Source: a virus
Length of the DNA stretch: 21,452 nt
Reading direction: 5' to 3' (one strand)
Virus record (IMG/VR): IMGVR_UViG_3300044855_000337
Span: 1 to 21,452 of that record
The notes below the pieces were generated by a model that saw only the letters and a program-made list of their open reading frames with translations, was not told where the DNA came from and did no database searches. Made by a program: the position numbers and the translations under genes. Positions within the stretch are counted from its first letter, which is position 1; each line of letters starts with the position of its first letter. Positions 10-13,951 of this stretch are shown piece by piece.

Positions 10-3000
10 TTAAATAGTTTGCTCACACCAAACGGTAGCCGTAAATCCTGATGGGAAGTTAGTAAATACGTTCAAATCCCTGGAATAACTAGAGAACTGA
101 ATATAACTTAAACCAGCAGAACCACCTGGCCAATACCCGCTTTGATAAATTAAATCGCTCAATCGCACTTGGGAAATGTGCATAACGCTAGTGGACTTCC
201 AGTATTGGTAGTTAAATTCCACCGTGCCTCCTGTGCCTCCACCTAAGTTAGTTCCAGTTTCACCAGAAACAGCGAGAACAATTAAATTGCCGTTATATAA
301 ATTTCCCCAATCAAAAGATATAACATTGGGTAGAGGTACTGCGGTAGAAGCTACGTACAAACCAATAGATCTATAGGAATTACTGGCACTTTCACCGTTG
401 ATTCTAAAGAAGATAAAGCTTTGGTTATTGTTGTTATAGGTGCCTTGTAAGCTCCAATCAAAACCCCAACGTTTTACTCCAGTTAAAGGAGCATTAGCGT
501 TAATCGTCAAGGTGCTTTGGCTACCGTTACTGGTGATAGTTCCAATACGCTGACGACCAACAATAGTGTTAATAGAGTTACTGACAACACTACTTGCCAC
601 GCTAGTAGCGGTAGTTGTAGCAACGTTCACAGCCGTTGTAGAAGCCGCGTTTTGTACAAAGGCTGTAGTAGCTAAAACATTATTAGTCGTGCCAGAAGCG
701 GCTGTAGGGGCCTGAGGAGAGCCTGTAAAGATAGGACTAGCTAAGGGAGCAGCACCATTAACGTTAGAAACGTCGATCGCTCCTAGAGCCAATTTAGCTG
801 TAGTAACAGCACCATCAGCGATCGCAGCCGTACCTACAGCACCATTAGCTAACTTAGCAGAAGTCACGTTAGCATTTAATATCTTTGCCGTAGTAACCGC
901 ATTGTCAGCGATCTTTGTTGTCGTTACAGCACCGTTAGCAATTTTATTCTCTACGATAGAAGAGTCAGCCATTTTGATCGCGATAATCGTGTTATCAGCG
1001 ATCTTTGTGGTTGTTACCGCACCGTCAGCAATTTTGGTATTAGTAACGGCATCTGTGGCTAGTTTAGCGGCGGTAACACTACTATCCACAATATTTGTTG
1101 TTGATACTGCGCCAGTAGCTAATTTTGCATTGGTTACCGCACTGTCAGCGATCTTTGTGGTTGTGACCGCACCGTTAGCGATTTTACTCTCTACGATAGA
1201 AGCAGTAGCTATTTTGGCCGCAATAATCGTGTTATCAGCGATCTTGGTGGTTGTTACCGCACTATCAGCAATTTTTAGATTGGTAACAGCATCGTTGGCT
1301 AAGTCTCCACTAACAATTGTGGCGTCTGCAATCTCAGCACTCGTAACAGCGTTAGCAGCTATCTTTGCCGTTGTGACTGCACCGTTTGCTATATTAGCTG
1401 TTGCTACAGCACTAGGAGCCAATTTAGCGGATGTAATATTGCCGTCTACAATATTTGTTGTAGTAACGGCACCAGTAGCTATTTTATCTAAAGCGACGGC
1501 ACCATCAGCTATCTTTGCAGTTGTAATTGCACTATCAGCTATTTTGGTATTGGTTACCACTCCAGTAGCTAGTTTAGCGGCATCATCGATCGCGCCGTCA
1601 GCCACTTTAGCCGCCGTAACAGCATCGTCAACAATCTTAGCAGTAGTAACGTTAAGGTCTGCTATTTTATCTATTGTGACGGCATTATTAGCGAGTTTTC
1701 CAGTAGTAACATTGAGATCAGCAATCTTTGCCGTTGTTACATTAAGATTAGCTATTTTTGCTGTAGTAACATTGAGATCAGCAATCTTTGCCGTTGCCAC
1801 TGAATCGATCGCCAATTTACCAGAAGTAATGGCACTGTCAGCGATATCGGCAGTGACAATAGTACCGTCTGCTATTTTTGCACTGGTAACCGCACCATCG
1901 ATAATTTTATCAGTGGTTACAGCACTGTTAGCGATATCAGCAGTGACGATAGTACCATCCACAATATTGGCGGAAGTTACAGAATCAGCCGCTAATTTAG
2001 CATTGGTTACAGCACTGTTAGCGATCTTTGCAGTAGTAATATTTGCATCAACGATTTTCGTAGTGGTAATAGCACCGTCAGCAATATCAGCGGTAACAAT
2101 AGTACCATCAGCGATTTTTGCAGTAGTAACAGAACCGTCAGCGATTTTTGCAGTAGTAACAGAACCGTCAGCGATCTTTCCGGTAGTGACAGCACCGTTA
2201 AGAATTTTAGATTCTGCTACTGCGGCGTCAGCTAATTTTGCTAAATCGATCGCGCCATTAATAACTTTATCAGTACTGATGGCATTGGCGGCTATTTTAG
2301 CGTTGATTATGGCACTATCAGCGATCTTTGCAGTAGTAACAGAACCGTCAGCGATATCGGCAGTGACAATAGCAAGACCTTGGATAACCCATTCGTTAGT
2401 GTCTCGTTTACGCAGCACGATCGCTTGATTTTGGCGAATGGTACCTGTTAAATTTTGTAGAGTTACGCCTGAAGCAGCTACAAGAGTGATCGTGCCAGTA
2501 CCAATATTATAAACGTGGATAACTGACCCTGTAGGAAAAGCTACGATAGCGTTTGCAGGGATAGTAAGGTTACGTGCAGTAGAACTATTAAACGTTACGA
2601 CACGTCCTAAATCGGTCAACGCTAATTGATAGTTTGTAGTATTAGCAGTCGTTTCGTTTAATAAAAGTGGCGACAACTCAACGGTAGAAGATCCGTTTTT
2701 TACAAAGAAACGATCGCTACTAAAATTGACAACAGTACCTAAATCGCCAACAGAATTTCTGACGATAGGTAGACCACTACTAGAATATAAAACAAAACCA
2801 TTAGTAGGGTTAGTGGTAGGTACAGTGGTGGCATTGGTCAATCCTAATACACCCGCACCGCCACCAAATTGAGTAGCACTATTATTAAGTTGTAAACCTT
2901 GCTTTGCTACAACGTTATTATCAAATACACCACTACCTGTAAACGTCTTAGTACCACCAATATTTTGATTGGTAGTGTTATTAACATAACCGTTTAGATC

Positions 3001-3204
3001 GGTATAAATCTGAGTTTCTAGGGCGTCTACGGCGTTTAATGCGGCTTCGTTGACCACTTCAAATAGATCTTCTGCCGTAGTCCTTTTAAGTACGTTATTT
3101 TGAGCTACAATTAACGTATCTGTAAGAACGACGCTCGACGCTATATCGAGGTCTGAAACCTGACGTAGGATTACGCTATCTCTACTTAAAATTTGTTCAG
3201 TCAT
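10..3204 (-). CDS. Tail fibre protein with a long decapeptide-repeat shaft
   Basis: This is the last gene of the module and, at 1064 residues, the longest. It follows the gpI-like baseplate gene by 11 bases, the usual place for a receptor-binding tail fibre. Residues 1-75 are a probable attachment region. NQNIGGTKTFTG (79-90) is a motif common near the N-terminus of phage fibres. Residues 280-810 are 53 tandem decapeptides of approximate form T-T-A-K-I-A-D-G-A-V; one copy has 11 residues. Residues 817-851 match the familiar fibre motif APLxSPxFTGxPxAPTxxxGT...LATTAFV. The last ~185 residues are non-repetitive, rich in aromatic residues and glycine, and probably form the receptor-binding tip. 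The start is ATG, with a weak AGG upstream. The fibre role is well supported; the receptor is unknown. A chaperone for fibre folding may lie beyond the left edge. Confidence 0.88.
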   Translation of the reverse strand: MTEQILSRDSVILRQVSDLDIASSVVLTDTLIVAQNNVLKRTTAEDLFEVVNEAALNAVDALETQIYTDLNGYVNNTTNQNIGGTKTFTGSGVFDNNVVAKQGLQLNNSATQFGGGAGVLGLTNATTVPTTNPTNGFVLYSSSGLPIVRNSVGDLGTVVNFSSDRFFVKNGSSTVELSPLLLNETTANTTNYQLALTDLGRVVTFNSSTARNLTIPANAIVAFPTGSVIHVYNIGTGTITLVAASGVTLQNLTGTIRQNQAIVLRKRDTNEWVIQGLAIVTADIADGSVTTAKIADSAIINAKIAANAISTDKVINGAIDLAKLADAAVAESKILNGAVTTGKIADGSVTTAKIADGSVTTAKIADGTIVTADIADGAITTTKIVDANITTAKIANSAVTNAKLAADSVTSANIVDGTIVTADIANSAVTTDKIIDGAVTSAKIADGTIVTADIADSAITSGKLAIDSVATAKIADLNVTTAKIANLNVTTAKIADLNVTTGKLANNAVTIDKIADLNVTTAKIVDDAVTAAKVADGAIDDAAKLATGVVTNTKIADSAITTAKIADGAVALDKIATGAVTTTNIVDGNITSAKLAPSAVATANIANGAVTTAKIAANAVTSAEIADATIVSGDLANDAVTNLKIADSAVTTTKIADNTIIAAKIATASIVESKIANGAVTTTKIADSAVTNAKLATGAVSTTNIVDSSVTAAKLATDAVTNTKIADGAVTTTKIADNTIIAIKMADSSIVENKIANGAVTTTKIADNAVTTAKILNANVTSAKLANGAVGTAAIADGAVTTAKLALGAIDVSNVNGAAPLASPIFTGSPQAPTAASGTTNNVLATTAFVQNAASTTAVNVATTTATSVASSVVSNSINTIVGRQRIGTITSNGSQSTLTINANAPLTGVKRWGFDWSLQGTYNNNNQSFIFFRINGESASNSYRSIGLYVASTAVPLPNVISFDWGNLYNGNLIVLAVSGETGTNLGGGTGGTVEFNYQYWKSTSVMHISQVRLSDLIYQSGYWPGGSAGLSYIQFSSYSRDLNVFTNFPSGFTATVWCEQTI
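775..2367 (-). repeat. 53-unit tandem 30-bp repeat array inside the tail fibre gene
   Basis: The DNA encodes back-to-back decapeptides with a strict hydrophobic pattern: I or L at unit position 5 and V or I at position 10. T is frequent at positions 1-2 and D or N at position 7. Most copies have diverged. Two adjacent 30-bp units, 2111-2140 and 2141-2170, are identical. A 34-base stretch at 1703-1736 recurs exactly at 1763-1796, two units away. These identities point to recent duplication by slippage or unequal recombination. The regular period and stop-free opposite strand also create a long meaningless plus-strand open frame here. Confidence 0.92.
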
Positions 3205-3215
3205 CGTAGTAAAAC

Positions 3216-3866
3216 CTATATACTAAGAGCGTCGGTGTAATCAGAAGACAACAATACGAAATTATCTTGATCTAGGAATCCAAGGGTTTCGTAAGTAACA
3301 AAAAAGTCGGACGAATAAACGATCTCTTTAGTACACCAACAGGGACCAAAAAGATAATCTAATTTTTTGGCTAGAATTTCTTTAGGCGTGGCGTAATATT
3401 CGTAGGGTAGTATGATATTGTAATCCCAAGAAATAGTTCCTAAAGGATCTCCGACTACGTTCTTACCAACAATAAAGCTTTGACCTTCTTGGATAATATG
3501 GCGAATATCGAAAGCGTTTAGTACAAAACTTAATACCAAACTGGTACCTTTTTTAGGCCATATTAAACTAAAGGCGTTACTTAGTAACGATCGTTTTGTG
3601 TTAACTTCCCAGATAGTGTTCCAATATTGATCGGTGAATCCAAACATAGGTGCTAGAAAATCCAGCATCATTGGATCGCACGTAAGAGGGTTTAATTGTC
3701 TTGGATAATCGTCAATCTTATCTCTAATTTCAACAAGAGTGCGATCGAACGGTGCCATCAACCATTGAGATATCTCGTTATCAGTGTAACCACCATTTAT
3801 TCCTGGTAATAAACCTGAAGCTGGCTTGTTGTCGATGTACCATCTTTTATAAACTTCAGTCGTCAT
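3216..3866 (-). CDS. Baseplate/tail protein I-like (P2 gpI family)
   Basis: The protein has about 216 residues. It probably belongs to the P2 gpI-like family, whose members sit at the edge of the baseplate and link the gpJ wedge to the fibre. The sequence shows a run resembling the family core: K-R-x-L-L-x-N-A-F-x-L-I-W-P-K-K-G-T-S, followed by a hydrophobic helix ending near N-A-F-D-I. The gene order gp25/gpW, gpJ, gpI, fibre is the same as in P2. I chose the ATG at 3866 because GAGG lies 6 bases upstream. A longer form would start at a TTG at 3878, overlapping the stop of the gpJ-like gene, and has no better ribosome site. Assignment rests on position plus a moderate motif match. Confidence 0.72.
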   Translation of the reverse strand: MTTEVYKRWYIDNKPASGLLPGINGGYTDNEISQWLMAPFDRTLVEIRDKIDDYPRQLNPLTCDPMMLDFLAPMFGFTDQYWNTIWEVNTKRSLLSNAFSLIWPKKGTSLVLSFVLNAFDIRHIIQEGQSFIVGKNVVGDPLGTISWDYNIILPYEYYATPKEILAKKLDYLFGPCWCTKEIVYSSDFFVTYETLGFLDQDNFVLLSSDYTDALSI

Positions 3867-3874
3867 AACCAACC

Positions 3875-5053
3875 TCAAAGATTATCAAGATCACCACGTC
3901 CTAATTCAAATACGTTACCTTGTCCGTCTGATAGTTTAATATTCAGACTACGATATTGGACAATCGAGTACGCATTGTCAGGTTCAATATTGTTAGGCAA
4001 ATCGTTTAACAATATATAATCGATAAACTGAATACCTTCTACAAAACGTAATTGGTGGCGTACTTCTTCGATATGAAGCGTTTCACCAGGTCTAAACGAT
4101 TGTGGTGATAGATAAGATTTGATCGCGTTTTCCAAATTATCAGCTATCGTGGCGGCAGGTATAGCACCATCTATTCTAGCTGTAATATAAATATCGACAG
4201 GTGATACTTCCATTGCCGATACATACAACGTGGTCCCTAATAAAATATTAGGTTGTAGAGCTGACTGAACGCTATTTAATAATCCGATACCTGCTGGTAT
4301 ACCTTCTGTAGACAAACAAAATAGATGGATAGCACCAGGCGTTTTCGTAATTTTATCAGGGCCTAATAGACCGATACATTTAGCAGCGCTACCAACACCC
4401 ATAACTGTAACAGCGGCTTGTTCAAAATCTAATTCAGATACTAGATTTCTTATACGAACTTCTCTAAAGCCTCTATTGATCGCATCTTCGATGGGTTCAG
4501 CATCACCGCCACCTGAAGCAGGAGAATTATTAATGACACTGGATAGAAAAGCTAAAGGTTGGGTAATACGAGAGATAGAGAAAGCAGGTAGGTTGTATTC
4601 TGATCCTGTCTTTTCGGCTTCAACGTCTACGGTGCCATTGATAAAACCCGCAGGTATCGTTAGAATATTTTTAGTGAAAAATCGTAGATTGTTAGAAGTA
4701 GATACTACCTCAAAACCGGCAGGTATTTGATAAGGGGTGTTACGTGGTGAACTCAATGTGAATGTAACATTGGCTACAGCTTTAGTAGCAAGTGTTCTAG
4801 TAACGCCAGCAGCCCCTAGAAACGTTAGTACAAGTGACAGAGGTAATTTATTCGTTCTATATAAAAACTCTGCCTGAGCGAACGACAGGGCTCTTACAAG
4901 GACTCCTAATGGGTTACCATCACTGAAATCGTTTAATTGGTTATTGGATAGAAACCGAATAAGATCCTGAGCTTGGGAAGCGATCGTTTCTTCTGAGCGA
5001 TCGTCGATTAACGGGATATAAGCTTCAATCTTACTTGTATCAACTTCGGCCAT
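3875..5053 (-). CDS. Baseplate J-like wedge protein
   Basis: This 392-residue protein is a baseplate wedge subunit of the P2 gpJ / T4 gp6 / Afp11 kind, which forms the ring that holds the sheath and triggers contraction. The N-terminal part is helical. It is followed by the typical beta-rich signature IPAGFEVVSTSNNLRFFT (about residues 110-127) and then an ...IPAG...V.VEAE.TG.EYN pattern, both usual in baseplate_J proteins. The start is the ATG at 5053, preceded by a good AGGTGG site; a GTG three codons upstream lies within that site. The ATG overlaps the stop of the preceding wedge gene as TAATG, so the two are probably translationally coupled. The length is near that of Mu/P2-type family members. 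Confidence 0.88.
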   Translation of the reverse strand: MAEVDTSKIEAYIPLIDDRSEETIASQAQDLIRFLSNNQLNDFSDGNPLGVLVRALSFAQAEFLYRTNKLPLSLVLTFLGAAGVTRTLATKAVANVTFTLSSPRNTPYQIPAGFEVVSTSNNLRFFTKNILTIPAGFINGTVDVEAEKTGSEYNLPAFSISRITQPLAFLSSVINNSPASGGGDAEPIEDAINRGFREVRIRNLVSELDFEQAAVTVMGVGSAAKCIGLLGPDKITKTPGAIHLFCLSTEGIPAGIGLLNSVQSALQPNILLGTTLYVSAMEVSPVDIYITARIDGAIPAATIADNLENAIKSYLSPQSFRPGETLHIEEVRHQLRFVEGIQFIDYILLNDLPNNIEPDNAYSIVQYRSLNIKLSDGQGNVFELGRGDLDNL

Positions 5054-5373
5054 TAGGTCCACCTGTAAACGTATAACTTTGTATCTTCAGAACCTCTATA
5101 AGAATAGAAAATATTTAGAGATTCTAAATCGCTAACAACTTCAATATCCACGTCTGGTATTGCCGCTTGTAGACGGTCTTTTAAGTTTATAAAAGTAGTG
5201 GACGTTCTCGTATCGAATAAGCCAGGATTAAAACCGTAAGAACTTCTCATAGGATTTTCTAACGGGTAAGTATCTAAATAATGTCTGATCGCACTCTGAG
5301 CCCAATCATCATCCTTGACTACTTTTAGATTGCCGTTTTCTATTTCAAAAGGGTATTTCACACCAGTTATCAT
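5053..5373 (-). CDS. gp25/gpW-like baseplate wedge protein
   Basis: At 106 residues this is the size of the T4 gp25 / P2 gpW lysozyme-like wedge family, a small baseplate subunit that contacts the first sheath ring. It starts with G-V-K-Y-P-F-E-I and contains L-E-N-P-M-R-S-S-Y-G-F-N, resembling the conserved stretch in this family where a short acidic or glycine motif follows a helix. The position directly before gpJ is the classic one. The start is an ATG with GGATGG upstream. The TAA stop overlaps the next start (TAATG). The family is not thought to be catalytic despite the name. Assignment rests on size, order and a moderate motif match. Confidence 0.78.
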   Translation of the reverse strand: MITGVKYPFEIENGNLKVVKDDDWAQSAIRHYLDTYPLENPMRSSYGFNPGLFDTRTSTTFINLKDRLQAAIPDVDIEVVSDLESLNIFYSYRGSEDTKLYVYRWT

Positions 5374-5376
5374 TGA

Positions 5377-5979
5377 TTACCATCCTTTACCAGTTAGGAC
5401 ATCACCTCTATTATCAGGGGCTCCTACAGTTGCGATCTGTTGTCCATTGATCGCAACAGAAGATGCTGTTATAGCAACATCGCCTGTAAGGTTAATAGTA
5501 GGGGCTGTAAGCGTCACAGTTGATGGACTTTGTACTGATACATTACCATTAGTATTAACGGTTATAACGCCTCCTGATGCTGTTTGTAGCGTTATAGTGC
5601 GATCTGCTGTAATAGTGTAACTACCATCAAGGTTGTACATAAAATCCTCAGCCACATTATTTTTATTTAGGGGAGGATTTGTGTCATTTACGCAATATAG
5701 ATAGAAGGCGTTAGTATCTACACCATCAATACATAAAACTAAAACAGTTTGTCCTATCTTTGGTAAGGGTTCATCTTTTCCTTGTGTCGTATCTAATCGT
5801 CTTATCCAATGAGTTTCTAATTGTGGATTAGCAGGATTAACGACTTTGATACGTCTACGATTTTCAGGATCATTGTTGTTAGAAACGATCGCTAAATAAG
5901 GAGCTATATTACGCCCTATCAAACTATTAGCGAATTTAGCCGTGTCTTGTAATTCTGTTAACTTAGAAAGAAAATTCAT
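5377..5979 (-). CDS. gpV-like baseplate spike protein
   Basis: This 200-residue protein probably forms the trimeric central spike (P2 gpV / Mu gp45 / T4 gp5 type). Residues about 25-105 look like the N-terminal OB-fold: R-R-R-I-K-V-V-N-P, then H-W-I-R-R, then L-P-K-I-G-Q-T-V-L-V-L. Residues about 117-180 are short alternating beta repeats rich in T, V and N, typical of a beta-helical spike shaft. The chain ends in G-A-P-D-N-R-G-D-V-L-T-G-K-G-W with no obvious His-x-His metal-binding tip and no PAAR domain. The start codon overlaps the upstream hub stop as ATGA, so spike and hub are coupled, which fits their direct contact in the baseplate. Confidence 0.85.
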   Translation of the reverse strand: MNFLSKLTELQDTAKFANSLIGRNIAPYLAIVSNNNDPENRRRIKVVNPANPQLETHWIRRLDTTQGKDEPLPKIGQTVLVLCIDGVDTNAFYLYCVNDTNPPLNKNNVAEDFMYNLDGSYTITADRTITLQTASGGVITVNTNGNVSVQSPSTVTLTAPTINLTGDVAITASSVAINGQQIATVGAPDNRGDVLTGKGW

Positions 5980-8123
5980 TTGATAAACTGTAATGGATCT
6001 TTCGCTGTTCCATTTTGCCTAATTTCAAAGTGTAAATGTGGTCCCGATGAGTCACCAGTGTTGCCTGTAAGCCCTATCAATTGACCTTGAGACACGGTTT
6101 GACCTTGACTTACTTCTACTCTACTTAAATGAGCGTAACGGGTCTCAAAACCGCCAGGATGTGTAATATAGACAACGTTACCGTAACGTCCACCACAAGA
6201 ACGATCGCCTACTTTGCAATTTGTAACTATTTGACTAACTACACCATCTGCTGATGCAAAACACGCTTCACCTGTAGGAGTACCAATATCAACACCTCTA
6301 TGTAGACCTGAAGATCTAGGACCAAAAGGTGATGTTATCAGTCTAGTTTTGGTTGGAAATATAAACCCATTAGGATTCTTTTGATCGCTTTGAGAAGTGT
6401 CTACAGAACCGTTTTGGGTGGGATATTTATTACGCAAAGGACTATAGACAGTACCCGTAGTTTTCCAACCAGAAGATGCTGATAAACTATGAGAAACTTC
6501 TTCGATAACCCACACGCGATCTAAAAACTCAGTAACACCTTCTGTTAGTAAAATATCATCTGGTGTCAGTTTAAGTAGTTCGTTGGTGGTAGGAGTTTCA
6601 AAATTAGCTACAATACCTTTTACTCGTTGTTCGTTAAGTTTGCGATCGCGATCTATTAAATCTGATACACCATCAGTTAAAGGTTTGATACTAGCTAAAT
6701 TTACACCTAATGTAGCCGCTGTACTTTGAGAACCTAACGTTTCACTTTTAATATCATCTTCTTGTACTAATAAACCTGTATCAGGGTCAATATTATACTT
6801 TTTAATACCTGTAGAAGTTAACTCACCAGGTTCAGCACTACGAGCCCCTTGTGTAGAATTAGCTTTGTGCGATACTGAAAAATTGGTTAGATTTTCACCT
6901 AACTTTAATCTCCACACAGGAAGATCCACTAACATCTCAGATCTCGCTTTTATCTGAATGCGATTGTCACCGACGTTCTTAATTATAAGACCAATACGAT
7001 CGCACTCTCTGGTTAATAAATCCCAATCGGTTTCAGCTTTTTGCTGTATATAAACATACTTTGGTCCCTCTACAGTCATATCCACTGTTAAACCGTAGTT
7101 GGCCGATATCTTCTCAGCTAACTCTTTTAACGTGATGTTAATATATGCCGAATTTTTCTTAGACTGGTGTAATACAAAAGCAGCAGCCGTACCGTTAAAT
7201 TTAAGTATGCTATTGTCATAAAGGTCATATTGTATACCCGTATGAATGAAACTATAACCGACTGAAGGTTTATTATCGAATCCCAAAAAGATCGTAATCT
7301 GTTGACCAGCTAAAGTGGCCTCTCTTTCTACTGAACTAGGGGTGGTATTGATCGCTAAACTATCTTGAGTATCGTCAGTAACATTTGATACAACGTCCAC
7401 ATTCATTGCTTGAACTAACGCTTCTGCCATAGGCAACCAGTAAGCGTATTTATCAGGAAACGCGGATCGTTGTACACCTTGAGCGGCTACAGCGCGATCA
7501 TATCCAGAAGGATTTTGGTTTCTAGGAGTCCAAGAGAATAAACCAGGAGTGCCAGGAGCTTTACCACCTTTTAGGAATAATCCAGTAGATCCGCCAATAT
7601 CAGTACGAGTGGCGTAATCACCCCAAGGTTCTCTTTGTTGATACCAACCTACAGAATCGCGATCGCCGTCTTTTTGAAATACGAGACTCGATTCTTGCAT
7701 TACAGTGATTAATGCGGTTTCAATATCTCTAATAGATCCGCCAAGAGCTTTTACAGAAGATGCCACCTTAAATGCGTTATCAACTTGAGTCTGGCTTAGA
7801 GTTACACCACCATATACACCACCGCTAGGAGGTTCACCAGCAATGCTAGAACTAACAGGAGTATTATTAGTCCTTTGTTGTAGTTGGTTAGGTTCTAGAC
7901 CGTCTACGCTCTTTACATAGGTGAAAAAATCATTGGCTATAGTACGATCTTTGTCATAAATAGAGAAACTGCACGTTGATAGATTATTTCCTTCGTTCAA
8001 TGTGACATTGACATCGATTAAACGACCATCACCCCAATTAAATTCGTAAGTACGTAGATCGCGATCGTCGCTATCAGCGATTTCTGTAGATCCAGCACCA
8101 ATGAGAATTTTTGCGTAGGCCAT
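5976..8123 (-). CDS. Baseplate hub (gpD-like) fused to a lysozyme-like domain and an M23 endopeptidase
   Basis: This 715-residue multidomain protein is the tail hub. Residues 1-70 and about 270-560 fit the gpD/gp27 hub fold; the later part includes A-E-T-D-W-D-L-L-T-R-E-C-D-R-I-G-L, the usual gpD signature. Residues about 108-242 interrupt it with a lysozyme-like (SLT-type) domain: MQESS with presumed catalytic Glu144, GDRDSVGWYQQR (153-164) and VQRSAFPDKYAYW (217-229). This set resembles muralytic domains common in actinobacterial proteins. Residues about 586-715 are an M23/LytM zinc endopeptidase: HRGVD (His608, Asp612), YAH (His665) and HLH (His696, His698), all apparently intact. It probably cuts both glycan and peptide bonds of peptidoglycan during entry. 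The spike gene follows with an ATGA overlap. No strong ribosome site is visible. Confidence 0.9.
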   Translation of the reverse strand: MAYAKILIGAGSTEIADSDDRDLRTYEFNWGDGRLIDVNVTLNEGNNLSTCSFSIYDKDRTIANDFFTYVKSVDGLEPNQLQQRTNNTPVSSSIAGEPPSGGVYGGVTLSQTQVDNAFKVASSVKALGGSIRDIETALITVMQESSLVFQKDGDRDSVGWYQQREPWGDYATRTDIGGSTGLFLKGGKAPGTPGLFSWTPRNQNPSGYDRAVAAQGVQRSAFPDKYAYWLPMAEALVQAMNVDVVSNVTDDTQDSLAINTTPSSVEREATLAGQQITIFLGFDNKPSVGYSFIHTGIQYDLYDNSILKFNGTAAAFVLHQSKKNSAYINITLKELAEKISANYGLTVDMTVEGPKYVYIQQKAETDWDLLTRECDRIGLIIKNVGDNRIQIKARSEMLVDLPVWRLKLGENLTNFSVSHKANSTQGARSAEPGELTSTGIKKYNIDPDTGLLVQEDDIKSETLGSQSTAATLGVNLASIKPLTDGVSDLIDRDRKLNEQRVKGIVANFETPTTNELLKLTPDDILLTEGVTEFLDRVWVIEEVSHSLSASSGWKTTGTVYSPLRNKYPTQNGSVDTSQSDQKNPNGFIFPTKTRLITSPFGPRSSGLHRGVDIGTPTGEACFASADGVVSQIVTNCKVGDRSCGGRYGNVVYITHPGGFETRYAHLSRVEVSQGQTVSQGQLIGLTGNTGDSSGPHLHFEIRQNGTAKDPLQFIK

Positions 8124-8167: not shown

Positions 8168-8479
8168 CTACAATAACCACGATACTAATTGCTGTGAGGA
8201 TAACCCATCTACAGTTTTTAACTGACTTAAATCGATTTCTTCAAATCTTTTATCGTCAAATAGACTGAAAACACCCTCTAATTCTTCAGCTTTAGCTTTT
8301 ATACGCGATTCTAACTGGTCTGATATTTCCAGTATACGACCAGTAATAGTTTCAGTCGGATCAAATTCGTCAATGTTAAATTCATCCGCTAACTCTCTAA
8401 ACACTGATGGATTACCATACAGTTGACTAGCGATCGTGCTTAACGTTTGACCCGCTTGTACATTTAATAGAGTAGCCAT
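8168..8479 (-). CDS. LysM-domain baseplate/tail protein
   Basis: This small protein has 103 residues, of which about 4-52 form a LysM-like domain: V-Q-A-G-Q-T-L-S-T-I-A-S-Q-L-Y-G-N-P, then E-F-N-I, ending I-L-E-I. LysM domains of this type occur in P2 gpX, in T4-like baseplate proteins, and at the C-terminus of Cis7/Afp7 in contractile injection systems; there they help build the hub rather than bind free peptidoglycan. The C-terminal half is charged and helical. The gene starts one base after the stop of the tube-initiator-like gene (TAATATG), with AGGT just upstream. A 44-base gap without clear signals separates it from the hub gene. Confidence 0.83.
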   Translation of the reverse strand: MATLLNVQAGQTLSTIASQLYGNPSVFRELADEFNIDEFDPTETITGRILEISDQLESRIKAKAEELEGVFSLFDDKRFEEIDLSQLKTVDGLSSQQLVSWLL

Positions 8480-8480
8480 A

Positions 8481-9302
8481 TTACCTAAACGTCGCTAAAG
8501 GTTCTAATTGTTGAGATTCGATATTGTAAGATCCAAATTGTCCTAATGTTCTTCCGCCACTAGCCATATTTATTTCGTTAGCCGAAGGTATTAATATGAT
8601 TAATCTTTTGGCGGTGTACTCAGTTCTAATATCGACAGGAAATTTGTTAAGGTTAGATCCAATATAATCTAACACTTTCTTACGCACTTCTTCTTTCTGG
8701 CGATCAGTTAACGTAGGAGCCGGTACGGTATTAGTACTACTACCACTACTATTACTACTATCGGTAGTAACGATCGCAGTGTAATTTAATTTTACTCGTC
8801 TAGTACTAAAAGCGTTAGGTAATGTCGATGACGGTACTTGCGTTAGATTTATCGATATAGTACCAACAGCAGGTTCACCATTTAATACAGCGATCGTTTC
8901 CCATCGTAAGTCTTTTAATATGGCGGGTCCAAATATAAAACTGCCGTATACGAATATTACTAAAGGAGGTGTTAATGTTTCAGTACTTGGTAATGTAAGT
9001 CGTCCTAACCCTTCGATAAGTTCTCTAGAGGATCTATTATCGCTATAAGTGTCAAATAGTAAATTATCCAATGTCAATGTAGTACCACTTGTGTTTCGGT
9101 AATACATTGGTTGAATAGCTGTACCACCTACACTCACTTCAGAGTAATTGACACTTTTATTGAACTTTAATGTCTCAGGGTTGAATAGAAACTGATACAA
9201 TACCTCCCCATTTACATCAGTTAACAACGACCTACTATAAGTCTTAGTTACAGTAGGTAAACTTTCTAAAACATCAGGGTTAGCTATGGGTTCCAATATC
9301 AT
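8481..9302 (-). CDS. CIS tube-domain (Afp7/Cis7-like) baseplate protein
   Basis: The protein has 273 residues. Residues about 36-130 resemble the N-terminal domain of contractile injection system tube proteins of the Afp7/Cis7 type: F-L-F-N-P-E-T-L-K-F-N-K-S-V-N-Y, then G-T-A-I-Q-P-M-Y-Y, then L-T-L-D-N-L-L-F-D-T. Such proteins sit between the hub and the tube and start tube polymerisation. A Ser/Asn-rich linker (about 180-195) precedes a mixed C-terminal segment. In many relatives a LysM domain is on the same chain; here it is the next gene. The start is an ATG with AGGT about 6 bases upstream. The family call is from pattern memory and should be checked by profile search. Confidence 0.68.
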   Translation of the reverse strand: MILEPIANPDVLESLPTVTKTYSRSLLTDVNGEVLYQFLFNPETLKFNKSVNYSEVSVGGTAIQPMYYRNTSGTTLTLDNLLFDTYSDNRSSRELIEGLGRLTLPSTETLTPPLVIFVYGSFIFGPAILKDLRWETIAVLNGEPAVGTISINLTQVPSSTLPNAFSTRRVKLNYTAIVTTDSSNSSGSSTNTVPAPTLTDRQKEEVRKKVLDYIGSNLNKFPVDIRTEYTAKRLIILIPSANEINMASGGRTLGQFGSYNIESQQLEPLATFR

Positions 9303-9309
9303 TTTTTAC

Positions 9310-11313
9310 CTACACAGCATATTGTTGAGATAATCTACGTTCGATTTGTTGAATCACCATTTCAGCGATCTCAGAAGGGTTTTGGTTGGGTTGGGTATTT
9401 ATAGTAATACCACCTAATGAAATATTAGAACCTCTGTTGTTTAGAAGAGCTTGCTGTTGATTCCTAGTTAAAATCAATTCGCTAGTATTAGCAATAATAG
9501 GGTTAGCACCAGCAGGCATCGCTTTGAGTTCTCTACTAAAGGCGTCTGGTATAAAACCTTCGGCAGCGTTACCCAGTTTTGGAATTTTGGGTATGTCTAT
9601 CCCAGGTATTTTATCAAGTAAAGAGGTAAGGAAATTGATCGTGCTGATAAAGGTATTAATATAACCTTGGAAACCTTGTTTGATAAGATCCCATCCTAGC
9701 GATGCTACCTCTTTAAGAGACTCTAACCCTGATAAAATGTTGGCTTTGATAGTTTCCCAATTGTTCTTAATTAATAAGAACACACCTACTAATAATGCTC
9801 CTACAGCCGCGATCGCTAATATGATAGGAGCTGTCAATGTTATACCAATAGAAGCGGCAAGTACGGCTAATCCACCTAATATGGCGCTAGTTAAACCACC
9901 AATAGCTCCTGTAGCTAACGGCACTAACATTAGTGCGATCGCTGAACCGATTAGAACTCTAGCACCTGTTATATAAGTATTAGGATCTAGATTAATCAAA
10001 AAGTTGGCTAATCCTTTGACTACACCAATCCCTATTTCACCAAGTAATAGGAGTACCGATCCGTAATCTATTGATTTAATCAACGTCGATAGTTGATCTA
10101 AACCCTCTTGAAGGATCTGACCAAATAAGGTGCCTGTAGTTGTACCAATAGCACCCCAATCTAGCGATCGCATCATTGCTACAGCGTTATTGATTAGATC
10201 AGCGATCATCTTCCCTATATCAGGTATAGACAAATTATCTAAATTTAGAAAAGTGGATAATTTGTCGCTAAGATCCAAATTCAATCTACTAAAATCTAGC
10301 TTGTCTTCAGTGTTATTGAAGATTTGTAGATAGTTGGTAAAACGTGATACAAAGTTGTTAAATTTATCGATACCATTTTTTAAGCTAACCATTGGATCTA
10401 ATCCAAGGTTGTTTAACATCGTTGTGATAATACCGTTTTGACCGATGAATAATTTAACGGTTTCAACTAACGATTTATAGACGCTACCACCACTAGAATC
10501 CAATTCTCTCATTATACCGAACAAGCCGGTAGTAGGGTCAAAGAATCTAGTATTAAAAACTTCTACAATACCAGACACACTTTGAGATAATTTATCGATC
10601 ATCTCGTCTGATAATAAGACGTTTTTAAGTCCTGTTAGAGTTTTTACTCGTTCCTCTTGAGTAAATTGTTTCCACTCTTTGCCTAAGTCATTTTGAGCTT
10701 TTTCTAGCCCTTTCATAAAGGCGACATTACCACCAAAGAAATCGTATTGTCTGATTTCGTTTAGAGTGGCGTTGCCTGCTAACAGTTTTTCTGAGCCTAG
10801 TAATACTTTAGCTTGATCAGCTTCGCCACCTACAAATTTAAGTAACGATACAATATCAGTAGTAGCTTTCTCCCAATCTTTTACGTTAAGCGTTCCATCA
10901 GCGTTCTGAAACGCTCTAGCAACGTCGTTAGCAATTACGTTAGATAGTGCCAAATACTCTTTAGTGGCACCTGGAAGGACCGCAGCGGCGTCTACTAGCT
11001 TCTTATTTAGAGAGGCAATATAATCCTCAGCTACGGTAAGGGAAATATTACTAAATTCAGCCGTAAGATTGTTTGCGGCTTTTAGAGCGGACATACTAAC
11101 GCTGTTGGCTTCAGAAAAAGCCTTAGTCATACCAATACCGCCAGCGATCGCAGCAGCACTACCCGCTATAATGCCGCCTAAGGCTACACCACTTGCAGCA
11201 CCTAATAGGTTAAATCCTTTGGTACTGGTAGCAACGTTTCTTTGTAACCCTTCGATAACTCTAGAGGCTTCATCTTTTGCGATCAGTACTGTCTTAACAA
11301 CGTTATTTAACAT
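9310..11313 (-). CDS. Tail tape measure protein
   Basis: This 667-residue protein sets tail length and is ejected early in infection. It lies directly after the overlapping chaperone genes and before the baseplate genes, the standard place. Two hydrophobic, Gly/Ala-rich regions are visible, about residues 35-64 and 453-515, as expected for segments that may insert into host membranes. The rest is helical. Near the C-terminus, A-E-G-F-I-P-D-A-F, P-A-G-A-N-P-I-I-A-N-T-S-E-L-I-L-T and N-Q-Q-Q-A-L-L form a motif often seen at tape-measure ends. At about 0.15 nm per residue, the length implies a tail near 100 nm. The start is an ATG without a strong ribosome site. Confidence 0.88.
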   Translation of the reverse strand: MLNNVVKTVLIAKDEASRVIEGLQRNVATSTKGFNLLGAASGVALGGIIAGSAAAIAGGIGMTKAFSEANSVSMSALKAANNLTAEFSNISLTVAEDYIASLNKKLVDAAAVLPGATKEYLALSNVIANDVARAFQNADGTLNVKDWEKATTDIVSLLKFVGGEADQAKVLLGSEKLLAGNATLNEIRQYDFFGGNVAFMKGLEKAQNDLGKEWKQFTQEERVKTLTGLKNVLLSDEMIDKLSQSVSGIVEVFNTRFFDPTTGLFGIMRELDSSGGSVYKSLVETVKLFIGQNGIITTMLNNLGLDPMVSLKNGIDKFNNFVSRFTNYLQIFNNTEDKLDFSRLNLDLSDKLSTFLNLDNLSIPDIGKMIADLINNAVAMMRSLDWGAIGTTTGTLFGQILQEGLDQLSTLIKSIDYGSVLLLLGEIGIGVVKGLANFLINLDPNTYITGARVLIGSAIALMLVPLATGAIGGLTSAILGGLAVLAASIGITLTAPIILAIAAVGALLVGVFLLIKNNWETIKANILSGLESLKEVASLGWDLIKQGFQGYINTFISTINFLTSLLDKIPGIDIPKIPKLGNAAEGFIPDAFSRELKAMPAGANPIIANTSELILTRNQQQALLNNRGSNISLGGITINTQPNQNPSEIAEMVIQQIERRLSQQYAV

Positions 11314-12484: not shown

Positions 12485-13951
12485 TTAATTAGAAACTTGA
12501 CCAGCCGCAGCCGCATCTTGGACAGCTCCCAAGTTAACGCGAATTGTGTTGATCAACAGTTTTTCTAGGATGGGAGAAGGTGCTGCGTACACTTCAAGTA
12601 GCACGTTACCATTCTCTAGATCGTCAAGTTCGTTATTCTCTAAAGAACACTTAACGGCATAGGCATCGGCTTCAGTAGCACCAAACAGTGCCTTACCTAA
12701 CCACAATCTACGGCACACAGAGTTGGCAGTACCTTCAATACGTTGGAATAGGATAGAAAACCCATCGATCGCACTAAAGATATCGTAATCAAACGCGCCT
12801 CGTAAGGTGCCATTCAACACGTTCATAATCACACGGGTATGAACGAAGGTATAGTAGCTGTTACTAGAACGGGTACGAGCCGCCCACGATACTACACCAA
12901 GATTCAATAGGAATCGCACTAAGTTAATACCCAGAGGATTCAATACCGATTGTTCAGTGTTGGTGAATCGCTTAGTAACATTTGTTACACCAGCAATGGG
13001 ATAGTTAGCACCAGCGGGAGGTTCTTGGAACCCTTGTTGACGATAACGCTTAGTAGCAATACCAGCGATCGCGGCTGAACTGGGAACAGTGTTACCTTCG
13101 AGGTCTGTCAGATAAGGCGCGTAGAACGCTAGATGACCTTGAGCGGTAGCATATAGCTGACCTTCGGCTTGTACAGCGGCTACAGTGGTCTGATTAGAAG
13201 CGCAATCAACAAGTGCTACCCAATCATAATCCTTATCGGCGGCGAGGTTTTCCATAGCTACACCTACAGCTTGACGAGCAACGGCTGTAGAGAGATTTTG
13301 GAACGCTTCGGGCGCAATGATGAAACCTTGCTCAAGATTACGTCCACCAATGGAATCGAAGGTGTTTTCGATCGCGTAAACGTAATCGTAAGAGTTGGGT
13401 AGAGAAGCAGGGGTAACGTTAGCGATCGTCAACAATGCGTTAGCAGATGCTACAGTTAGAGCTTGTTCAGGGTCAGAAGACCGAATGATAAACTTATTAG
13501 AGCTAGTAGATGTTGCAACGACTTCATCACCAACATTAGAAGAACTAATAGAGGCAATGAATTTAGCGACAGCTTGAGTAGGAGTATCACCTAGTAAAAT
13601 ATTAGTATCAACAGCTTGACCGTTAATAGTAATAGTTACTACTTGAGTGATAGGCGAACCTACGGTAACTTCAAAAACAGGAGCGATCGCTGTTCTAATA
13701 AAATACAGCTTACCTTGGCGATCGTTACGGAAATACAATTTGGCCGAATTTGTGGACGCTGATGCACCAAATTGATTTGTAAAATCTTCCACATTGTTGA
13801 CTAACGTAGGAAAATTATAATCGCCTTGTTCAGACGACCCAATCATATATACAGTCGAAAAAGAAGCAATTTCAGGAACTCGATAACCACCAGTCGTCTC
13901 AGTAATGAAAACGCCGGGTCTTGTCAGGTTGGCAAAGGCTAAGTTTGACAT
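12485..13951 (-). CDS. Contractile tail sheath protein
   Basis: This 488-residue sheath protein surrounds the tube and contracts on infection, which makes the phage a myovirus. The N-terminus shows the family signature: L-T-R-P-G-V-F-I-T-E-T (residues 9-19). It continues with V-Y-M-I-G-S-S-E-Q-G, F-P-T-L-V-N-N-V-E-D-F-T-N-Q-F-G, and Y-F-R-N-D. The C-terminal part, R-R-L-W-L-G-K-A-L-F to the end with L-L-I-N-T-I-R-V-N-L, fits the conserved C-terminal domain that threads between neighbouring subunits. The ATG has no clear ribosome site. The 70-base gap upstream is T-rich on the minus strand and could hold a weak promoter. Confidence 0.93.
   Translation of the reverse strand: MSNLAFANLTRPGVFITETTGGYRVPEIASFSTVYMIGSSEQGDYNFPTLVNNVEDFTNQFGASASTNSAKLYFRNDRQGKLYFIRTAIAPVFEVTVGSPITQVVTITINGQAVDTNILLGDTPTQAVAKFIASISSSNVGDEVVATSTSSNKFIIRSSDPEQALTVASANALLTIANVTPASLPNSYDYVYAIENTFDSIGGRNLEQGFIIAPEAFQNLSTAVARQAVGVAMENLAADKDYDWVALVDCASNQTTVAAVQAEGQLYATAQGHLAFYAPYLTDLEGNTVPSSAAIAGIATKRYRQQGFQEPPAGANYPIAGVTNVTKRFTNTEQSVLNPLGINLVRFLLNLGVVSWAARTRSSNSYYTFVHTRVIMNVLNGTLRGAFDYDIFSAIDGFSILFQRIEGTANSVCRRLWLGKALFGATEADAYAVKCSLENNELDDLENGNVLLEVYAAPSPILEKLLINTIRVNLGAVQDAAAAGQVSN

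Follow-up and report, generated by a model that had tools for sequence, protein, structure and literature searches.

The locus described here raises the question of how the baseplate hub of a phage could carry two different wall-cutting domains on one polypeptide, one of them lying inside the hub fold, and from where such domains may have been recruited. The window (the whole stretch of DNA analysed) comprises 21,452 nt, positions 1 to 21,452 of the IMG/VR record IMGVR_UViG_3300044855_000337. We consider it probable that the product of its hub gene is the baseplate hub, presumably a trimer, of a cyanophage with a contractile tail, and that its two enzyme slots are occupied by domains that would cut the cell wall: a GH184 muramidase-type domain, probably acquired once, and an M23 endopeptidase. 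The neighbours of the gene encode spike, wedge, tube and tape measure proteins; no tRNA was found in the window. The relevant features are as follows.

3216-3878: Tail_P2_I protein (Pfam)
3875-5062: Baseplate_J wedge (Pfam)
5377..5979, minus strand: spike with a Phage_base_V OB domain (Pfam), the next gene, overlapping the hub stop
5976..8123, minus strand: hub gene (715 aa, ATG start), domain order N-GH184-core-M23
7896..8123, minus strand: first half of the hub barrel, residues 1-76 (aligns in all relatives; beta strands in the model)
7833..7895, minus strand: flexible linker 1, residues 77-97 (pLDDT mostly <50)
7389..7832, minus strand: inserted GH184 muramidase-type domain, residues 98-245 (profile and fold matches)
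7692..7694, minus strand: codon of the presumed catalytic Glu144, equivalent to KsGH184 Glu41 (alignment; invariant in 40 rows)
7308..7388, minus strand: flexible linker 2, residues 246-272 (pLDDT <50)
6435..7307, minus strand: hub core, the remainder of the gpD/gp27-like fold, residues 273-563 (fold matches)
6378..6434, minus strand: linker 3, residues 564-582 (pLDDT <50)
5979..6377, minus strand: M23/LytM endopeptidase domain, residues 583-715 (Pfam E 1.8e-30; fold match)
8168..8479, minus strand: small baseplate gene, the positional counterpart of A-1(L) gp16 (assigned by position; 36% identical to a Tildeniella prophage gene; no Pfam LysM match)
8481..9302, minus strand: tube-initiator-like protein (CIS_tube, Pfam)
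9310-11313: gene matching tape measure families
12485-13951: sheath (Pfam)

Pfam matches of the 715-residue protein to hub families were weak (Phage_GPD, E 0.0076, below the cutoff; Gp44-like, E 0.0021). The best PDB match of the full-length model was the hub of phage A-1(L) (8KEA; E 1.3e-30, Z 27.6), and further fold matches over residues 1-565 were to eCIS, Mu, pyocin, T6SS and T4 hubs of the gpD/gp27/VgrG type, the hub body aligning with Mu gp44 over 275 residues (Z 21.1) and with T4 gp27 over 296 residues (Z 19.7). The model (pLDDT 77.7; pTM 0.48, the relative placement of the domains not being fixed by it) contains confident hub, GH184 and M23 parts and low-confidence stretches at residues 69-91, 246-268 and 564-582; the insert domain is predicted at about 100-244 and the hub resumes at G273. 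The proposal of an earlier note, made from the sequence alone, that a muralytic domain interrupts the first barrel domain of the hub is thus borne out by both profile and fold.

When the two putative enzyme regions were searched separately with profiles, the insert led to GH184 and the C-terminus to M23. The presence of the M23/LytM domain, also anticipated earlier, is clear: Pfam Peptidase_M23 (PF01551) matches residues 607-710 at 105 bits, above the cutoff of 28.7, the fold agrees with those of LytM, DipM and ShyA (Z about 19-21), and the active-site residues are complete (His608, Asp612, His665, His696 and His698, in HxxxD, His and HxH arrangement). All five had been listed as zinc ligands. 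By analogy with LytM, we take only His608, Asp612 and His698 to be ligands, while His665 and His696 are presumably catalytic.

The insert proved more difficult to name. Residues 98-245 match an actinophage tape measure family; no naming model for them was found in Pfam or NCBIfam, and a single-sequence search of the PDB gave nothing significant, the profile search alone being successful. In that search the insert retrieved the GH184 muramidases 8B2H (E 4e-23) and 8B2E (E 7.5e-23), the two solved structures found, and in the reverse direction a GH184-type profile matches hub residues 108-240 (E 3.5e-44). An AlphaFold2 model of the insert alone (pLDDT 93.6) was superimposed (VIA-align) on 8B2E at 1.4 Å over 125 residues (Z 19.1) and on 8B2H at 1.6 Å (Z 18.8), the next-best fold match being phi29 gp13 (Z 10). 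Neither a non-hydrolase family nor the absence of a lysozyme-like cleft at Glu144, the outcomes that would have spoken against the original proposal, was found; profile and fold both indicate a muramidase. The suggested catalytic residue also stands, as Glu41 of KsGH184, essential by mutation (PMC10394673), aligns with hub Glu144, and Asp66, located at the active site of the same enzyme, aligns with Asp154. Glu144 and Asp154 are invariant across 40 aligned rows and, together with the motif DxDSxGxxQQR, are largely kept in the window, in Tildeniella and in the remaining rows of the family. We infer that the insert is a GH184 muramidase-type domain, with predicted muramidase activity. It resembles the GH184 muramidases in fold, catalytic Glu, Asp and motif; the characterised members (8B2E, 8B2H; PMC10394673) are free fungal enzymes, whereas the domain in the window is embedded in a virion hub. 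GH184 muramidases can now be placed in phage virions, and no paper describing such a placement was found in the literature searched.

The anatomy of the hub, together with the A-1(L) precedent, suggests how the protein may work. The first slot is the barrel loop ahead of a conserved strand (G-x-x-I-x-I), from which GH184 is suspended on two flexible tethers, and the second is the C-terminus, where an M23 DD-endopeptidase domain is carried on the third flexible linker. Tail contraction would drive the spike through the outer membrane and bring the hub into the periplasm. There, the three GH184 domains of the presumed trimer would cleave glycan strands (Glu144 acting as the acid, assisted by Asp154) and the three M23 domains the peptide cross-links, the combined cleavage producing a local hole in the wall that would admit the tube. 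The activities of both domains, the trimeric state and the timing of these events are all inferred.

Virion enzymes can be degenerate, and GH184 might instead be a non-catalytic wall-binding or structural module, leaving M23 as the sole cutter. Occupying a slot does not guarantee activity, since for the A-1(L) hub cell lysis is described for the endoglucanase and peptidase domains and activity of its slot lysozyme is not claimed in the text consulted (PMC10966104). We nevertheless regard this alternative as unlikely, given the conservation of the catalytic residues and motif in the family and the fit of the model, at 1.4-1.6 Å, to active muramidases.

The reading with two cutting domains is not without parallel. 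The hub of A-1(L), an Anabaena myophage, is trimeric and carries a lysozyme (residues 56-265), an endoglucanase (266-430) and a peptidase (736-899) beside a conserved barrel (PMC10966104). The broad two-enzyme architecture is therefore already known. The two-cutter hub, which had been judged unusual, is so in comparison with T4; it is not so beside the A-1(L) hub and about 20 cyanobacterial prophage hubs. A-1(L) gp15 shares with our hub the family, the insertion loop and the C-terminal M23-type peptidase, but its slot holds a lambda-type lysozyme and a DPBB endoglucanase instead of GH184, and the cores are only 27% identical. It was not matched by the GH184 profile, and the two inserts have no BLAST similarity. 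The A-1(L) hub (locus L012:3726-6425, protein P0002) has an M23 domain without the HxxxD histidine, yet the peptidase domain is reported as active; phrog_7930, which bears the label "lipoprotein precursor", corresponds to the family of A-1(L)-type hubs and matches P0002 over the full length.

T4 gp5/gp27 is similar in having a hub-associated lysozyme, and gp27 aligns with our core, but in T4 the lysozyme is placed on the spike protein gp5 and M23 is absent, whereas in the window both enzymes are on the hub. The OB spike of the window is encoded by a separate gene and gave no enzyme match in Pfam, i.e. the lysozyme-on-spike arrangement of gp5 was not found. Another tail protein, phi29 gp13, combines lysozyme-like and LytM-like domains; it is a tail-knob protein without the hub fold and its lysozyme belongs to a different family. 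Protein gp134 of the Mycobacterium phage LinStu (Bxz1 group; L024:1493-4339), a baseplate-region protein, carries GH184 (E 7e-26) and a second wall enzyme, NlpC/P60. By inspection its N-terminal part contains an apparently uninterrupted barrel, so the GH184 slot appears to be elsewhere.

The same domain order was sought in other phages and found in a prophage of the cyanobacterium Tildeniella torsiva, whose hub (734 residues) is 51% identical over its whole length. Near-identical copies of the hub (92-100%) are also present in six IMG/VR contigs. A chance assembly of the two-enzyme hub is excluded by this shared order and by these copies.

How general is the slot? Apart from Tildeniella, five of the 386 cyanobacterial genomes sampled have strong hub matches that are interrupted at this position. 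Viral contigs supplied 15 further hub loci, and an additional locus merely duplicated one of the hubs in the set; with the A-1(L) protein P0002 as a query, no relative was found in viral contigs, and a scan of them with A5 gave no conserved stretch. The hub cores are pairwise homologous (26-60% identity, plus near-copies), while the inserts fall into classes without a BLAST link to each other. GH184 occupies the slot in the window and Tildeniella hubs. Other occupants are a lambda-type lysozyme (profile match to 1AM7, E 4e-37), a double-psi barrel (DPBB_1) and, in Leptolyngbya phage Lbo402-yong5, a GH19-like domain. DPBB_1 stands alone or is followed by a second cassette, which is amidase-like (a weak class, with E 0.09 to Pfam Amidase_3 and nothing matched in the PDB), lambda lysozyme or unclassified; the searches assigned no class to the insert of L112 and the second cassette of L110. 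In one hub the C-terminal M23 is replaced by CHAP. In hubs lacking an insert (about 355 aa) the slot is only a brief loop, immediately preceding the G-x-x-[IV]-x-[IV] strand.

Two pairs of hubs are natural swaps. The first, L171 and L172, shows 85-97% identity across most of its flanks and core, yet the value falls to 13-28% for the second cassette and to 34-57% for the C-terminus. The same pattern is seen in G043 and L165 (core about 82-97%, second cassette 11-28%). A tree of the cores (unrooted; deep branches are unresolved both here and in the M23 tree) contains 10 architecture changes; its starred branches by themselves call for a minimum of three changes involving the amidase type and of two involving DPBB plus lambda lysozyme. 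In the M23 tree, L172 joins G341, L173, L165 and L167 in a starred clade and G043 is the sister of L169. The core tree instead groups L172 with L171 and G043 with L165, and this conflict falls at supported branches. Near-identical cores with unrelated cassettes, and the conflict between the trees, show at the level of sequence comparison that both the barrel loop and the C-terminus have been exchanged in relatives of the hub. It seems rather likely that these two positions are general exchange sites of cyanobacterial phage hubs for unrelated wall-cutting domains, sometimes across phyla and perhaps in step with host wall chemistry. The novelty here lies in the finding of GH184 in a phage hub and in the evidence for repeated refilling of loop and C-terminus. 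A single odd hub thereby becomes a testable rule (a loop that accepts whole enzyme domains and has been refilled many times), and the swap pairs provide natural material for examining whether the enzyme on the tail tracks the wall of the host.

As to the origin of GH184, the affinity to actinobacteria noticed at the outset holds, the matches being mostly from actinophages and actinobacteria. In sequence, the insert is nearest (up to 48% identity) to domains in the tape measures of phages of Streptomyces, Rhodococcus and Gordonia; there the carrier is the tape measure and not the hub, and in some M23 adjoins GH184. The 395 phage records matching the domain are all from actinophages with the exception of Microcystis phage Mwe-JY05 (PP395638; L026), in which GH184 lies in the tape measure protein. 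The genome of that phage looks like that of an actinophage, with an annotated lysin A and with relatives of the domain in actinobacteria, and the Microcystis host may be doubtful. The "motif 2" of mycobacteriophage tape measure proteins has been described previously (PMC1796659); TM4 gp17 was not matched by the GH184 profile. In sampled genomes GH184 occurs in 1 of 386 cyanobacteria (the Tildeniella hub) and in 12 of 198 actinobacteria, and 78 of the best 80 loci of a genome scan with the domain are actinobacterial by title. The window and Tildeniella hubs are joined in the core tree (99/100). Independent gains by these two hubs were considered, as the first domain tree had separated them, and set aside; a single clade for both was not rejected (p 0.644) and gave the better fit.

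On the basis of these genome counts and of the almost exclusively actinophage relatives, GH184 was likely acquired once, from an actinobacterium or an actinophage; this is the simplest reading, with the trees unrooted, and would point to domains passing between actinophages and cyanophages. Alternatively, GH184 might be ancestral in the hub family and have been replaced elsewhere, with no actinobacterial import. The unrooted trees would accommodate this, as would base composition (GC3 of 0.257 in the insert and 0.259 in the core), which gives no signal of recent transfer, an event we discarded for this reason. We consider an ancestral origin improbable in view of the occurrence of the domain in genomes, its confinement to one starred hub clade and its grouping in the domain tree with actinophage tape measures (the window beside those of Streptomyces phages), although the latter is without decisive support.

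Very improbable is the derivation of GH184 and M23 from one actinophage tape measure cassette split around the hub core. Streptomyces phage tape measures do hold both families side by side and in the same order, but hubs whose inserts are different also carry M23 as a rule, and the M23 tree disfavours the split: the M23 of the window is nearest to other hub M23s, and those of the Streptomyces tape measures form a long separate branch and lack HxxxD. These M23 domains beside GH184 (L011, L019 and L021) are possibly inactive, as HxxxD is missing.

Judging by relatedness, the host is most likely a cyanobacterium: 20 window genes match the Tildeniella prophage with order kept (28-64% identity). 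That the contig is a phage-derived injection system or tailocin is scarcely credible, although eCIS hubs align well with the hub model, since window genes match in order the upstream genes of that prophage that look like terminase, portal and capsid genes (judged from their residues, size and order).

Several hub loci showed irregularities. The hub gene of L170 (about 869-5389) is apparently split, the N-terminal half and inserts lying in one ORF and a separate frame of 504 codons, transposase-like by eye, preceding the core, which may reflect a mobile element inside the gene. Decay or sequencing error might account for L168:5251, where the hub ORF ends within M23 ahead of HLHxE, and for L178 (about 2938-3824), in which the N-terminal half and core are in different frames.
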